A stretch of 64,000 nt of DNA from NCBI RefSeq assembly GCF_003346775.1, contig NZ_CP031219.1, positions 2,232,001-2,296,000 on the forward strand. Direction: 5' to 3'. This document shows positions 31,428 to 53,578 of the stretch, piece after piece; position 1 is the stretch's first letter; each line of letters starts with the position of its first letter. The translations under genes were made by a program, and so were the position numbers. Under the pieces are notes generated by a model. The model was not told where the DNA came from and did not search any database. It worked only from the letters and a program-made list of their open reading frames with translations. The DNA is from Malaciobacter mytili LMG 24559. GTDB taxonomy: Bacteria; Campylobacterota; Campylobacteria; Campylobacterales; Arcobacteraceae.

Positions 31428-31865
31428 ATGGATTTAGAAGAATTAAAAAGGCTTCGAAAAGAAAACTTTTTAGCTCATAAAAAGAAAAAAAGAGAATACT
31501 ATCTTAAAAAGAAAATAGAAAAAACTCTTACTAAAAAAAGAAATAAAGTTAAAGAGTTTGATTATGAAACGGACTTAAATCCTTTAAACTTCGAAAGAAA
31601 GATTAAAGAGATTATCAAACAACAAAAAGAACATGTTGATAATAGAAAAGATAAAATTATTGAAAAAATAAGAGAATATAAAGAGAAAAAAAGAGAATAC
31701 TATATAGAAAATAAAGATAGAAGACTTGAATATGATAAAGAGTATAGAGAACAAAAAAAAGAAGAATTAAGAGAATACAGAAGAGAATATTATCAGAAAA
31801 ATAAAGATAGAATACTAAAAAAACAAAAAGAAAGAAGAAAACAACAATCTAATAACAAAGAGTAA
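31428..31865 (+). CDS. Lys/Arg/Tyr-rich repeat protein, unknown
   Basis: A 145-residue, extremely basic, helical protein that I cannot assign. It holds three related repeats built on KREYY: KKREYYLKKKIEK (20-32), KKREYYIENKDRRLEY (around 85-100) and YRREYYQKNKDRILKKQKE (near the C-terminus). No signal or membrane helix is visible. It lies 16 bp after flgG and 3 bp before a membrane coiled-coil gene, so it is co-transcribed with flagellar genes. Repeats of EYYxKNKxK type are also found in proteins of large DNA viruses and protists, probably by convergence. Confidence 0.7.
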   Translation: MDLEELKRLRKENFLAHKKKKREYYLKKKIEKTLTKKRNKVKEFDYETDLNPLNFERKIKEIIKQQKEHVDNRKDKIIEKIREYKEKKREYYIENKDRRLEYDKEYREQKKEELREYRREYYQKNKDRILKKQKERRKQQSNNKE

Positions 31866-48488: not shown

Positions 48489-50008
48489 TTTAAAAGATTT
48501 TTAGCAAATTGTAAAGCCTCTTTAGAAATATCTTCACCACTAATCATTCTTGAAATTTCATCAACTCTTTGCTCTTTATTTAAAAGTGTAACTGTAGATT
48601 CACCATTTACTTTATCAACTAAAAAATGCTGATTAGCACTTGAAGTTAATTGAGGCTGATGAGAAATTGCAAAAATTTGATATGATTTTGATAATTGGCT
48701 AAGTACAGTGGCAATTGCTGAACTTTCCTTTCCACTTAAATTTGCATCAATTTCATCTAAAAATAAAACTCCATTATTTACTATTTCAAACTCACTTATT
48801 GAAGTAAGTAAAGCAAGTCTTAATCTATTGAACTCTCCTGAACTAATAGTATCTAAATCAACTCCATTTAAATTAAATATAATTTCATCTATTCCTGTAG
48901 AATCTAATTCTTTTTTATTTGAAGTGATTTTTGCATTTGAAAGATATAGAAATTTTAAATAATGATTTACCCTATTTTCTAATTTAATTAAAGCTGTTTT
49001 TCTATATTCACTAATTTGTGAAGCTAAAGAGAATACAATAGCTGTTAAGTCTTCAATTCTTTTTTCTAATTTAGTTTTTTCAAAAGAGATATTTTCATAT
49101 TTTTCTAAATCTTCTTGTTTTTGTTTTTTATACTCTAAAGCTTGTTGTATTGAACCAAACCTTTTTTGTAAAGAAGATAACTGCTCAATTCTATTTAAAA
49201 TATTTTCAATATCTAACTCTTCTAATTCACTTAATGAGTCATTAAACTTTTCAAAATGATTATTTAACTCATTTATTGCATCATCAAAAAAAGAGCTATC
49301 AACTTCTAGTAATTCTAAAGCATTTGATACTAAATGAGAGCTATCAAAAATAGGAGCTAAACTTTTAAGTGCAGCTTCTATTTTATCTTTTTTTGATAAT
49401 TTTCTTTTAACTTCAATTAACTCATCATATTCATCAATTAAAGGATTAATTGCTTCAATTTTTTCTATTTCAAATTTTGCAAACTCTTTTAAATCTTCAA
49501 CTTTTTTTTCATCTTCTATTAGTTTATTTAACTCTTTTTTTTCTTTTTGAAGTGCTTGAAAAGTTGTATCAAATTCTTGTTTTATTTTTTTAAACTTACT
49601 GTTTTTTGAAGAAACTATATCTAAAAATTTTATAAGCTTCCAGCTTTCAAAATCAGTTTTATCTTTTAAACTTAGATGTTTAATAAGCATAGAAGAAAAA
49701 GTATAAAGTCTTTTTTTAGAAATAGATTGATTATTTAAAAGATACCTAGTTTTTTCCTTTTTTAACTCTTTTATAACAATTTCATCACCTATATTTATAT
49801 CAAAATCTTCATCAATAATTGAGCTTTCAAGTATAACTTCAGAAAGTTTTGCTTTTGGCTCTTTTATACCAAATAAAGATAAAATTGCTTCCATTAAAAT
49901 TGATTTTCCAGCACCACTTGAGCCTGTAAAAACAACTAAACCTTTTTCAAACTCTAAATCAACTTCTTTAAAAGATAAAAAATCCTTAATATATACTCGA
50001 TTAATCAT
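48485..50008 (-). CDS. recN: RecN-like DNA repair ATPase
   Basis: A 507-residue SMC-like protein. The P-loop GSSGAGKS is at 29-36, the middle is a long coiled coil, and the C-terminal half has the signature (LDTISSGEFNRLRLALLTSI, where the ABC signature lies) and Walker B VLFLDEIDANLSGKES. RecN binds broken DNA ends in recombination repair. It is 40-50 residues shorter than E. coli RecN (553), as often in Campylobacterota. It lies 5 bp after nadK. Confidence 0.92.
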   Translation of the reverse strand: MINRVYIKDFLSFKEVDLEFEKGLVVFTGSSGAGKSILMEAILSLFGIKEPKAKLSEVILESSIIDEDFDINIGDEIVIKELKKEKTRYLLNNQSISKKRLYTFSSMLIKHLSLKDKTDFESWKLIKFLDIVSSKNSKFKKIKQEFDTTFQALQKEKKELNKLIEDEKKVEDLKEFAKFEIEKIEAINPLIDEYDELIEVKRKLSKKDKIEAALKSLAPIFDSSHLVSNALELLEVDSSFFDDAINELNNHFEKFNDSLSELEELDIENILNRIEQLSSLQKRFGSIQQALEYKKQKQEDLEKYENISFEKTKLEKRIEDLTAIVFSLASQISEYRKTALIKLENRVNHYLKFLYLSNAKITSNKKELDSTGIDEIIFNLNGVDLDTISSGEFNRLRLALLTSISEFEIVNNGVLFLDEIDANLSGKESSAIATVLSQLSKSYQIFAISHQPQLTSSANQHFLVDKVNGESTVTLLNKEQRVDEISRMISGEDISKEALQFAKNLLN

Positions 50009-50013
50009 CTAAA

Positions 50014-50880
50014 TTAATTTCCCCATTGTAGTTTTTCATTTAATACTTCAAAATAGTTTCTTTCTCTTCTATGAAGTAATTTTGCTTTTTTTGATGCAAT
50101 TTGTATTTTAATTGATTGATTTTGCTCAATTTCATATATATCTTGACCATCTACTATAACAACAGCTCCTTGATTATCAGAAATTGTAAACTCAATTTCA
50201 AAATCAGCAGGTAATACCAATGGTCTTTGTGTTAAAGAGTGAGGTGCAACTGGTGTTACAATAAAAGCATCAGTTAAAGGATATACTAATGGTCCTCCTA
50301 AAGATAGATTATAAGCTGTTGAACCTGTAGGACTTGAAATAATTACTCCATCTCCATAATATGAGTTAAACGGTCTTCCATCTAGTTTTGCATCAATTCT
50401 TATCATAGAAGAAAGTGAATTTCTTGAAATTACAATATCATTAAAAGCAAAAAAAGTTCTTAGATTTGCACTACCTTTTATCATCATTCTGCTATCAATT
50501 CTATAATTATCTTTATCAAGATTATCTAAAAAAGTCTCTAATTCATTTAATCTAATATCAGTTAAAAAACCTAATGTTCCTAAATTTATCCCAAGAACAG
50601 GCTTATTATAAGAAAAACTTCTTCTTACAACAGAAATTAAAGTTCCATCTCCACCAACAGAAACTAAAAAATCAACATTTTCACAAATAGTATCTAACTC
50701 TATACCATCTTCATTAATCATATTTGCACTATTTCTTTCTAAATATACTTTTATATTGTGTTTTTCAAAACACTCTTTTATTTTTAAATAGCTATTTTTA
50801 ATTTCTGGTGTTGAAGGTCTTAGGACTATTCCTACTTTTGATTTTGAAGCTAATCTTTCTTTTGATATTGTTCTTTTCAA
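50014..50880 (-). CDS. nadK: NAD kinase
   Basis: A 288-residue ATP-NAD kinase that makes NADP. The catalytic motif GGDGT is at 76-80, followed by LGINLGTLGFLTDIR, and the motif SPTGSTAYNLSLGGPLVYPL is in the second half. Start TTG, with GGA upstream. The upstream region is the 113-bp repeat array, so its promoter must lie in 50881-51011. Confidence 0.96.
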   Translation of the reverse strand: MKRTISKERLASKSKVGIVLRPSTPEIKNSYLKIKECFEKHNIKVYLERNSANMINEDGIELDTICENVDFLVSVGGDGTLISVVRRSFSYNKPVLGINLGTLGFLTDIRLNELETFLDNLDKDNYRIDSRMMIKGSANLRTFFAFNDIVISRNSLSSMIRIDAKLDGRPFNSYYGDGVIISSPTGSTAYNLSLGGPLVYPLTDAFIVTPVAPHSLTQRPLVLPADFEIEFTISDNQGAVVIVDGQDIYEIEQNQSIKIQIASKKAKLLHRRERNYFEVLNEKLQWGN

Positions 50881-51011
50881 ATTTTATTCCACTTTGTTAT
50901 TTATTTGGAATATTTTATCAAAATGTTAATAAAAGTAGGAAGAATTAGTAATTATTGGTGTATTTGTTAGATAAATTCTTTAAATAAGGTAGTTTGTATT
51001 ATATAAAAGAA

Positions 51012-51454
51012 AAAAAGCCCCAGACAAGCTAGGGCTTTTTTAAAGAACGGACATTTGTGGTTCGCTTCGCAAACATCACAAATCTCGTTAAAACCTAAAA
51101 TCGTGAAGCAGTTCACTTAAATGCAAAAAGCCCCAGACAAGCTAGGGCTTTTTTAAAGAACGGACATTTGTGGTTCGCTTCGCAAACATCACAAATCTCG
51201 TTAATCACTATAAGAGTGAAGCAGTTCACTTAAATGCAAAAAGCCCCAGACAAGCTAGGGCTTTTTTAAAGAATGGACATTTGTGGTTCGCTTCGCAAAC
51301 ATCACAAATCTCGTTAAAACCTAAAATCGTGAAGCAGTTCACTTAAATGCAAAAAGCCCCAGACAAGCTAGGGCTTTTTTAAAGAATGGACATTTGTGGT
51401 TCGCTTCGCAAACATCACAAATCTCGTTAAAACCTAAAATCGTGAAGCAGTTCA
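51012..51454. repeat. Four 113-bp tandem repeats, each with a terminator hairpin
   Basis: Units start at 51012, 51125, 51238 and 51351, exactly 113 bp apart; the fourth ends after about 104 bp, where its sequence joins the fusA terminator. Each unit has three inverted repeats: AAAAAGCCCCAG-AAGCTAGGGCTTTTTT (a 12-bp stem with one wobble pair and T-runs on both strands), TTTGTGGTTCGC...GCAAACATCACAAA (imperfect), and GTGAAGCAGTTCAC. Only a few bases differ (C/T near unit position 38, and a 12-base block in unit 2). A 5-nt loop and flanking T-runs make the first hairpin a strong intrinsic terminator on either strand. Confidence 0.9.
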
Positions 51455-51462
51455 CGATTTTA
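51435..51462 (-). terminator. fusA terminator hairpin
   Basis: TAAAATCGTGAA and TTCACGATTTTA form a perfect 12-bp stem with a GCAG loop, 8 bp after the fusA stop; on the minus strand it is followed by GGTTTTAA. The other repeat units keep only GTGAAGCAGTTCAC, so this is probably the ancestral version. Confidence 0.8.
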
Positions 51463-51469
51463 AACGGTT

Positions 51470-53578
51470 TTAACCATTTCTCTTTTTAATGATTTCTTCA
51501 GAAACGTTTTTAGGAACTTCTTGGTAAGAATCAAATAACATAGAATATGTTGCTCTACCTTGAGACATAGATCTTAAGTCAGTAGAGTAACCGAACATTT
51601 CAGATAATGGAATCATAGCAGTAACTAGTTTTACACCAGCTCTATCATCCATAGATTGAACTTGTCCTCTTCTTTTGTTACAATCACCAATAATATCTCC
51701 CATATATTCTTCAGGAGTTTCAATTTCAACTTTCATCATTGGCTCAAGGATAACTGCACCAGCTGCAGCTGATCTACAAGCTTGTTTAAATCCCATAGAT
51801 GCAGCTAATTTAAATGCCATCTCAGATGAGTCAACTTCGTGGTAAGAACCATCATAAAGTGAAACTTCAATATCTACCATTGGGTAACCTGCTAAAATAC
51901 CACCAGCCATTGCTTCTTCACAACCTTTTTGAACTGCTGGAATATACTCTTTTGGTACAACCCCACCTTTAATTTCATTGTTGAATTTAAAGTTTTCTTC
52001 ACTTCCAGATGGTAATGGTTTAATATCTAAGTAAACGTGACCGTATTGACCTTTACCTCCAGATTGTTTTGCATATTTGTACTCTTGTTTTACATTGTTT
52101 CTAATTGTTTCTCTGTAAGCAACTTGAGGAGCACCAACTTCTGCTTCAACTTTAAATTCTCTTTTCATTCTATCTACAATAATTTCTAAGTGTAATTCAC
52201 CCATACCAGAAATAATTGTTTGACCTGATTCTTCATCAGTATTTACTCTAAATGATGGATCTTCTTCAGCTAATTTACCTAAAGCAATACCCATTTTCTC
52301 TTGGTCAGCTTTTGTTTTTGGTTCAACTGCAACAGAGATAACTGGATCTGGGAAATCCATTCTTTCTAAAATAACTGGATCTTTTTCAGATGCTAAAGTA
52401 TCTCCAGTAATTGTATTTTTTAATCCTACAACTGCACCAATTTCACCAGCATAAAGTTCTGTAACTTCTTCTCTGTTGTTTGCGTGCATTCTTAGTAATC
52501 TTCCGATTCTTTCTTTTTTCATTTTTGTAGAGTTAACAACGTATGTTCCAGATTGTAAAACACCTCTATAAACTCTTGCAAATGTTAATTGACCAACAAA
52601 TGGGTCAGTCATAATTTTAAATGCTAGTGCAGCAACTTCACCATTATCAGTAGAAGGAACAATTACTGCATCACCATCTTGAGTTTCACCTCTAATATCA
52701 GCAACTTCAGTTGGAGCTGGTAAATACATAGCAACAGCATCTAATAAAGTTTGAACCCCTTTATTTTTAAATGCAGTACCACAAGTCATTGGAGTAAGAG
52801 ACATAGATAAACAACCAGCTTTTAATCCAGAAACGATTTCTTCTTCAGATAAATCACCCTCTTCAAAGTATTTTTCCATTAACTCTTCAGAAGCTTCAGC
52901 AGCTGCTTCAACCATCTTTTCTCTATACTCTTGTGCTTTATCTAATAAATCAGCTGGAATTTCTTCTACATGGTAGTTAGAACCCATAGCAGCATCATCA
53001 TCCCATACGATAGCTTTCATTTTTACAAGGTCAATAATACCTCTAAAGTTATCTTCTGCACCAATTGGGATTTGAATTGGAACTGGATTTGCTTTTAATC
53101 TTTCACTTACTTGTTTTTCAACATTGTAAAAATCTGCACCAGTTCTATCCATTTTATTAACAAAAATCATTCTTGGTACTCTATATTTGTTTGCTTGTCT
53201 CCAAACAGTTTCAGATTGTGGTTGAACCCCACCTACTGAACAAAATACAGCTACAGCACCATCAAGAACCCTCATAGATCTCTCAACTTCAATTGTAAAG
53301 TCAACGTGACCCGGAGTGTCAATAATGTTAATTTGTAATTGCTCATTTGTTTTTGGGTGAGTCCAGTGACAAGTTGTAGCAGCAGAAGTAATTGTAATAC
53401 CTCTTTCTTGCTCTTGCTCCATCCAGTCCATAGTTGCAGCACCCTCGTGAACCTCACCTATTTTATGAGATACACCTGTGTAGAATAAAATTCTTTCAGT
53501 TGTTGTAGTTTTACCTGCATCAATGTGAGCTGCAATACCAATATTTCTAACTCTATTAAGTGGTGTTTTTCTAGCCAT
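51470..53578 (-). CDS. fusA: Elongation factor G
   Basis: A 702-residue translational GTPase that moves tRNA and mRNA through the ribosome. G1 motif [18 protein letters not shown]3 DTPGHVDF, G4 [10 protein letters not shown] and domain [22 protein letters not shown] are intact. It follows rpsG at 9 bp. No tuf gene follows; instead the repeat array does. Confidence 0.98.

Follow-up and report, generated by a model that had tools for sequence, protein, structure and literature searches.

A 113-bp tandem array between fusA and nadK of Malaciobacter mytili as a probable local amplification of a dispersed Campylobacterales element

The DNA analyzed here is a stretch of 64,000 nucleotides (the window) from Malaciobacter mytili LMG 24559 (contig NZ_CP031219.1, positions 2,232,001 to 2,296,000 of the forward strand), and our subject is a tandem array that is bordered in it by fusA and nadK, both located on the minus strand. 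An earlier reading of the letters of this stretch (the original prediction) named the two genes and placed repeated terminator-type hairpins between them, which is where they are found. Tandem Repeats Finder describes the array by a period of 113 bp, 3.9 copies, 96% matches, 0% indels and a score of 832; other arrays in the window reach 202 at most. The locus is made up as follows.

51470..53578, minus strand: fusA, an open reading frame (ORF) named in the original prediction, with a recognizable EF-G sequence; its C-terminus is matched in 103 of 104 genomes of the family Arcobacteraceae
51012..51455, no strand assigned: tandem array, with units beginning at 51012, 51125, 51238 and 51351 (Tandem Repeats Finder and sequence)
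50014..50880, minus strand: nadK, an ORF named in the original prediction and matched in 101 of the 104 genomes

Four exact 113-bp repeats had been expected. The spacing is constant at 113 bp, but the copies are near-identical rather than exact, units 1, 3 and 4 being 95, 94 and 93% identical to unit 2, respectively. Unit 2 is set apart by one block, which on the plus strand reads ..TAATCACTATAAGAG.. versus ..TAAAACCTAAAATCG.. in the other units; besides this block, the units contain one C/T difference. Unit 4 is without its final ~8 bases and merges into the fusA stop hairpin, whose stem is, as anticipated, the longest of the array in the fold. Searches with the array and with the 113-bp unit retrieved a single significant match site in the organism's own genome (3.04 Mb, 2 contigs).

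Read in the direction of fusA, a unit consists of a hairpin designated P1, then a bulged hairpin designated P2, then an A/T-flanked hairpin of the terminator type. The last of these is present in every unit as an A-run and a T-run, AAAAAGCCCC..GGGCTTTTTT on the plus strand, and the folds contain the two additional hairpins per unit that had been predicted. Six unit folds lie 2.4 to 8.3 standard deviations below dinucleotide shuffles, and the fold of the 501-nt region lies 9.6 standard deviations below shuffles. In the P1 closest to fusA, a 9-bp outer stem encloses the fusA stop codon; a bulge of 3 nt separates it from the inner stem of 12 bp. In the remaining three units, the junction GCATTTAA stands in place of the 5′ outer arm of P1, and the inner hairpin alone remains. 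P2 is held in a GAG..GTC frame and is built from a 7-bp stem, an AT bulge of 2 nt and an inner stem. The parts of the units are listed below.

51426..51474, minus strand: P1 of the fusA-proximal unit, 9-bp outer stem with the fusA stop, GTT bulge and 12-bp inner stem (exact outer arms, fold)
51389..51425, minus strand: P2 of unit 4, GAG, bulged hairpin, GTC (fold; the same frame is found after fusA in other genera)
51276..51312, minus strand: P2 of unit 3, at the 113-bp offset from unit 4
51163..51199, minus strand: P2 of unit 2 (pattern match 51161-51204)
51050..51086, minus strand: P2 of unit 1 (pattern match 51048-51091)
51351..51380, no strand assigned: terminator-type hairpin of unit 4, A-run and T-run, both directions (sequence, fold)
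51238..51267, no strand assigned: terminator-type hairpin of unit 3 (sequence)
51125..51154, no strand assigned: terminator-type hairpin of unit 2 (sequence, fold)
51011..51041, no strand assigned: terminator-type hairpin of unit 1, adjoining nadK, the sole one accepted by a terminator scan (minus strand)
51103..51116, no strand assigned: inner hairpin GTGAAGCAGTTCAC of unit 1, also at 51216-51229, 51329-51342 and 51442-51455 (exact pattern)
51200..51217, minus strand: variant 3′ arm of unit 2, identical to the P1 3′ arm at fusA in genome G085 (alignment)
50998..51027, minus strand: promoter-like match TTGTCT-18-TATAAT, overlapping unit 1, a possible nadK promoter

There are 53 occurrences of the 14-mer hairpin sequence GTGAAGCAGTTCAC, spread over 27 of the 104 family genomes (0-6 per genome), and none of the reversed control. 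The same P1 geometry was observed where this sequence follows pstA or groEL and where it lies in a 23S-5S spacer or a CRISPR array. An alignment of 42 columns was prepared from 26 sequences, 18 of them fusA rows and eight found via the hairpin sequence only. In this alignment, 97.3% of cells are paired versus 40-50% when it is slid, and both partners vary in 12 of the 16 pairs; the fusA rows were picked for an exact outer stem, and their outer-arm pairing is not independent evidence. The covariance model R1, for which the fusA-proximal P1 was one of the 26 building sequences, matches that copy at 51430-51470 (57.5 bits, E 1.4e-10). It has matches in 66 of the 104 family genomes at E <= 0.001 (up to nine per genome), in 117 of 398 genomes of the order at E <= 1e-5, across 40 of 87 genera, and in 43 of 298 genomes in a draw from the phylum. 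Scores of the analyzed P1 copies range from 37 to 66 bits; nothing above 17.4 bits (E 0.87) was obtained from 46 loci of other phyla (277 kb).

The core formed by P1 and P2 was found after groEL, efp, serS, ychF, pstA, guaA and other genes in many Campylobacterales genomes. Of the 65 upstream proteins, 20 were run for NCBIfam naming, two of which had no family at the limit used. Proteins ending at the element include SerS (at the organism's own second copy), EF-P, GreA, YchF, GlyQ, L1, GMP synthase, RadA, MnmE, PstA, AcnB, SerA, HemE, GroEL, Der, RNase J and S7. The scattered repeat that the original prediction had set against a local array is thus partly borne out for the P1 and P2 core, but not for the 113-bp unit with its one site. 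We regard it as very probable that the array is an amplified member of this dispersed structured family.

Individual copies were analyzed in a set of 130 matches, from loci that were the best-scoring among the matches listed; 128 remained after duplicate removal, and 11 matches (extra repeats of counted arrays and two partial matches) were left out. Among the 103 copies of exactly 42 nt, 61 different outer arms occur. For the 89 copies that did not contribute to the model, the outer stem is Watson-Crick at 426 of 445 pairs (95.7%; shuffled mean 49%, maximum 55%), a value that is an upper bound, since R1 favors paired copies. P1 starts within -5..+2 nt of a sense-frame stop (frame of at least 100 codons) in 53 of the 128 copies and of an antisense one in two, and TGA stands immediately 5′ of P1 in 55 (background 2.3%). 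For P2, sequence landmarks define a 4-bp stem in the commonest class; after removal of nine rows lacking the 3′ landmark, all pairs of this stem form in 29 of 33 copies (shuffled: 49% of pairs). The array and the family, pairing in P1 and in this best-sampled P2 class, the bias towards sense stops and the repeated occurrence of arrays at other copies are direct results of the computation. The next ORF of at least 100 codons could be scored for 110 of the 128 copies (18 unscorable), with 84 codirectional and 26 convergent cases. The sequence GGAGG is found within 90 nt after P1 in 20 of 128 copies versus 3 of 125 controls.

Some copies lie in settings of their own (G, C and L numbers are our handles for genomes, contigs and loci). 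Between them, L144-L149 (G006) and L041 (G106) have copies in six rRNA operons at the 23S-5S spacer and in three more at the leader. The CRISPR array at L150 (G049:C6:75200-76900, minus strand) contains two P1/P2 copies, one of them at the array end, each of which takes the place of part of a spacer and repeat. At L151 of the same genus (G004:C22:163900-165000), the 14-nt hairpin sequence stands in an apparent CRISPR spacer, as if it had been sampled; chance is possible. Copies at L197, L199, L201, L217, L239, L240, L250, L270 and L274 adjoin or overlap GTTTCACGTGAAAC or GTTCCACGTGGAAC (a variant at L257 and L277), with GTGAAAC forming the 5′ edge of the element; these sequences resemble parS sites. 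At L303 and L304 (G235) and at L286 and L305 (G291, G106), a partial start of the downstream gene (a tRNA-Ala half or the first codons of an ORF) lies 5′ of the element and the whole gene 3′ of it, in the manner of a duplication.

The array had no match in five other genomes of the genus, whose fusA 3′ ends carry a plain A/T-flanked hairpin instead. When Arcobacteraceae genomes were searched with the unit, as the original prediction had proposed, the organism's own genome gave one site, and an 83% match was retrieved from G085, a member of another genus, likewise directly after fusA; nadK of G085 is ~57 kb from fusA on the same contig. Two units are present there, of which the first has the 3′ arm of unit 2 described here and the second a 3′ arm resembling those of units 1, 3 and 4. 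These P1 variants, common to the array and to G085, suggest a reshuffled older two-unit state. Replacement of the whole fusA from a G085-like donor was considered and set aside, since in 150-nt windows the identity of fusA to G085 does not clearly exceed that to other genera.

Orientation of the fusA 3′ end was possible in 100 of the 104 family genomes, G053, G055, G056 and G077 being without a close fusA match. At 24 of these 100 ends, the stop region has an inverted copy of at least 8 nt within 110 nt, and in 18 of the 24, the inverted copy has a length of at least 9 bp, a constant first base and a GA after it, i.e., forms an exact outer P1 stem. Many of the remaining ends carry the plain A/T-flanked hairpin. 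The P2-frame pattern TTAACGAGMTTN{18,48}GTCYG yielded 14 matches in 11 of the 104 genomes versus 10 for the reversed control, a count without enrichment; 13 of the 14 matches lie directly after fusA.

Tandem growth is not peculiar to fusA. Arrays with a period of at least 35 were detected by Tandem Repeats Finder in 12 of 126 element neighborhoods (11 loci) versus 1 of 119 upstream control stretches and 0 of 74 fusA ends without the arm. Besides the array described here (113 bp x 3.8 in this comparison), examples include 87 bp x 2.6 after groEL in G065 and 60 bp x 6.6 in G062. The second P1 of the organism's own genome, directly after the serS stop (L245:1501-1790, contig C1 from 421709), has a tandem array of its own (61 bp x 3.3, 100% identity). 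Tandem amplification is a habit of the family, and since it recurs beside other copies, an explanation specific to fusA is weakened.

Taken as a whole and with its function included, the reading that we consider probable is a local amplification in which one copy of the dispersed Campylobacterales element, along with the terminator-type hairpin after it, became four in tandem. The local growth by duplication proposed in the original prediction is thereby retained, but its derivation from the fusA terminator is not, because the core belongs to a dispersed family and the five genomes of the same genus are without the array. The element consists of P1, which starts at or over a stop codon and has outer arms that are variable yet complementary, and then of the bulged P2. 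On fusA mRNA, P1 would close after the ribosome leaves the stop codon, and the closed P1 may act as a 3′-end barrier and weak terminator, either protecting the transcript or ending it. In series, the four terminator-type hairpins could then keep transcription of the str operon out of nadK. The copies may have multiplied via replication slippage or unequal exchange between the palindromes. The function itself, a 3′-end hairpin and terminator module insulating nadK, is assigned tentatively from sequence, as something possible rather than probable.

Several results weigh against this interpretation. The terminator scan of 50000-52500 returned one terminator versus 1.2 expected by chance, i.e., no excess. 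Since the scan accepts one of the four hairpins and the inner units have their T-run base-paired within the stem, the strong terminator that had been predicted for every unit is a reading of the A-runs and T-runs in each sequence and not a result of the scan. The 5′ outer arm of P1 is lost in three of the four units, so the full P1 is not what was amplified. Outside fusA, some copies are internal to operons (in 10 of the 128, an ORF has its start codon 3-15 nt after GGAGG), and others sit in rRNA spacers or a CRISPR array; a pure end-of-transcript role accounts for none of these locations. Finally, one genome per species was sampled, which places recent changes in copy number beyond reach. The genome is in 2 contigs, and a slip in assembly may have affected the copy number.

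A mobile or selfish origin has to be taken seriously as a rival, even though we judge it unlikely. Under it, the family would resemble miniature inverted-repeat transposable elements (MITEs), selfish or mobilizable, and would owe its spread to a trans-acting enzyme acting at sites with (G)TGA or GGA on their 5′ side; copies would survive at gene ends through low harm, and the array would be neutral slippage at a palindrome. The TGA before P1 fits such targeting, as it is found in 33 of the 66 copies without a 100-codon frame ending there as well. Near-identical P2s among several G233 copies, patchy presence at one site among related genomes and the 16 matches in G523 (L397-L412), several of which have one P1 core in a larger repeated setting with further hairpins, also speak for spread. 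On the other hand, the Y1/RAYT transposase (PF01797; RAYT, REP-associated tyrosine transposase) is absent from the organism's own genome, and although 36 of the 104 family genomes have it, none of 30 family PF01797 genes adjoins a P1 match at E <= 0.001. A hairpin scan around 10 Y1 transposase loci yielded a single hairpin and does not enter the argument. Common flanking strings of at least 11 nt are present in only 15 of the 128 copies, several of them arrays, and target-site duplication was not found as a general feature in this set; elements of the IS200/IS605 type, which lack target-site duplications, would fit this result. The strong sense bias and the compensatory changes in the arms indicate a role on RNA. 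A plasmid or phage source was set aside, the array having no blastn match among plasmids and phages.

The closest known elements are the repetitive extragenic palindromic (REP) sequences and bacterial interspersed mosaic elements (BIMEs), short imperfect bulged palindromes between genes, often after stop codons and sometimes tandem or clustered, that are associated with RAYT transposases. REP hairpins close to stop codons are reported to reduce expression via trans-translation. P1/P2 are likewise short bulged palindromes between genes (as judged by the fold and pairing of P2), near stops and in tandem. In contrast to REP/BIME, a RAYT-type gene is absent here and none stands beside the elements tested, and the outer arms vary yet stay complementary. 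Membership in the RAYT/REP group was set aside on the PF01797 results given above.

It is also conceivable, though rather doubtful, that the copies form a class of stop-codon-anchored RNA elements across Campylobacterales, in which P1 starts on or over the stop codon and the terminating ribosome therefore opens its outer stem. Whether P1/P2 are formed would signal that translation has terminated and decide what becomes of the downstream RNA (ending it, stabilizing it or exposing a ribosome-binding site). P2 would carry the next ribosome-binding site in some operons, and tandem amplification would tune the response.

Ordinary duplication of a local terminator is disfavored, and we consider it improbable. 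It holds that the fusA terminator of the species was copied by chance and that likeness elsewhere reflects terminators looking alike, in line with the A-run/T-run hairpin of each unit and with the lack of the exact unit elsewhere in the organism's own genome. A G+C-containing stem with a T-run after it, as in intrinsic (Rho-independent) terminators, can be read in the sequence of every unit, with one of the four accepted by the scan, and the inner hairpin of P1 looks alike. However, the fixed 42-nt geometry, the conserved GTTAA..TA frame and outer arms that covary beyond the T-run are not explained in this way, nor are the adjacent P2 and the copies in operons and rRNA spacers. The absence from the 46 loci of other phyla and the 27 genomes with the exact 14-mer, set against none for the reversed control, argue against it as well. 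Least likely of all, tandem small-RNA genes of ~100 nt, each ending at a terminator hairpin, would agree with the compact fold and terminator-type end of every unit, but the promoter-like matches in the region are at chance level (12 found, 10.2 expected), and Rfam has no family at gathering score either in the window or at copies elsewhere.

In detail, the search of the window with Rfam 15 gave seven sub-threshold matches to unrelated families, the best being BTnc231 (28.6 vs 80.4); for copies elsewhere, there were no matches at gathering in 13 loci and none at E <= 0.5 in 14 loci. Other known systems share single traits with the element. Enterobacterial repetitive intergenic consensus (ERIC) sequences are ~127-bp elements of conserved sequence in Enterobacteria and relatives. 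Both are transcribed intergenic palindromes without a known mover, but here structure is kept more than sequence, and the element is set apart from ERIC by description. Integron attC sites are folded sites with a bulged stem and RYYYAAC / GTTRRRY boxes. The element resembles them as a folded site beside a stop codon, with a bulged stem and small internal loops, but its hosts are core genes rather than cassettes, and the GTTRRRY core was unseen at the P2 3′ end in copies inspected by eye, no attC model having been run. Uptake-sequence terminators of Pasteurellaceae, as described in PMC5217627, also have one hairpin sequence recurring at 3′ ends; here, however, model matches do not exceed nine per family genome. 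A DNA uptake sequence, with hundreds of copies per genome, was rejected, this number and the 0-6 copies of the 14-mer being too few. No earlier description of the P1/P2 element was found in searches of open-licence literature, and among intergenic palindromic elements and terminators, it appears to be a previously undescribed form, of which the array is one amplified member.

Elsewhere in the window, an ORF at 31428-31865 (plus strand) encodes a Lys/Arg-rich product of 145 amino acids built of degenerate repeats, with a tandem repeat at 31664-31831 (period 90).

If the family holds, core genes (fusA, groEL, efp, serS, rpsG and guaA) across a large order carry at their ends a structured element hitherto undescribed, with possible effects on 3′ ends, read-through and the stability of mRNA. 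Its arrays at several unrelated genes constitute natural copy series at defined places, which make testable both the effect of repeated 3′ modules on expression and what drives the growth of repeats at palindromes.
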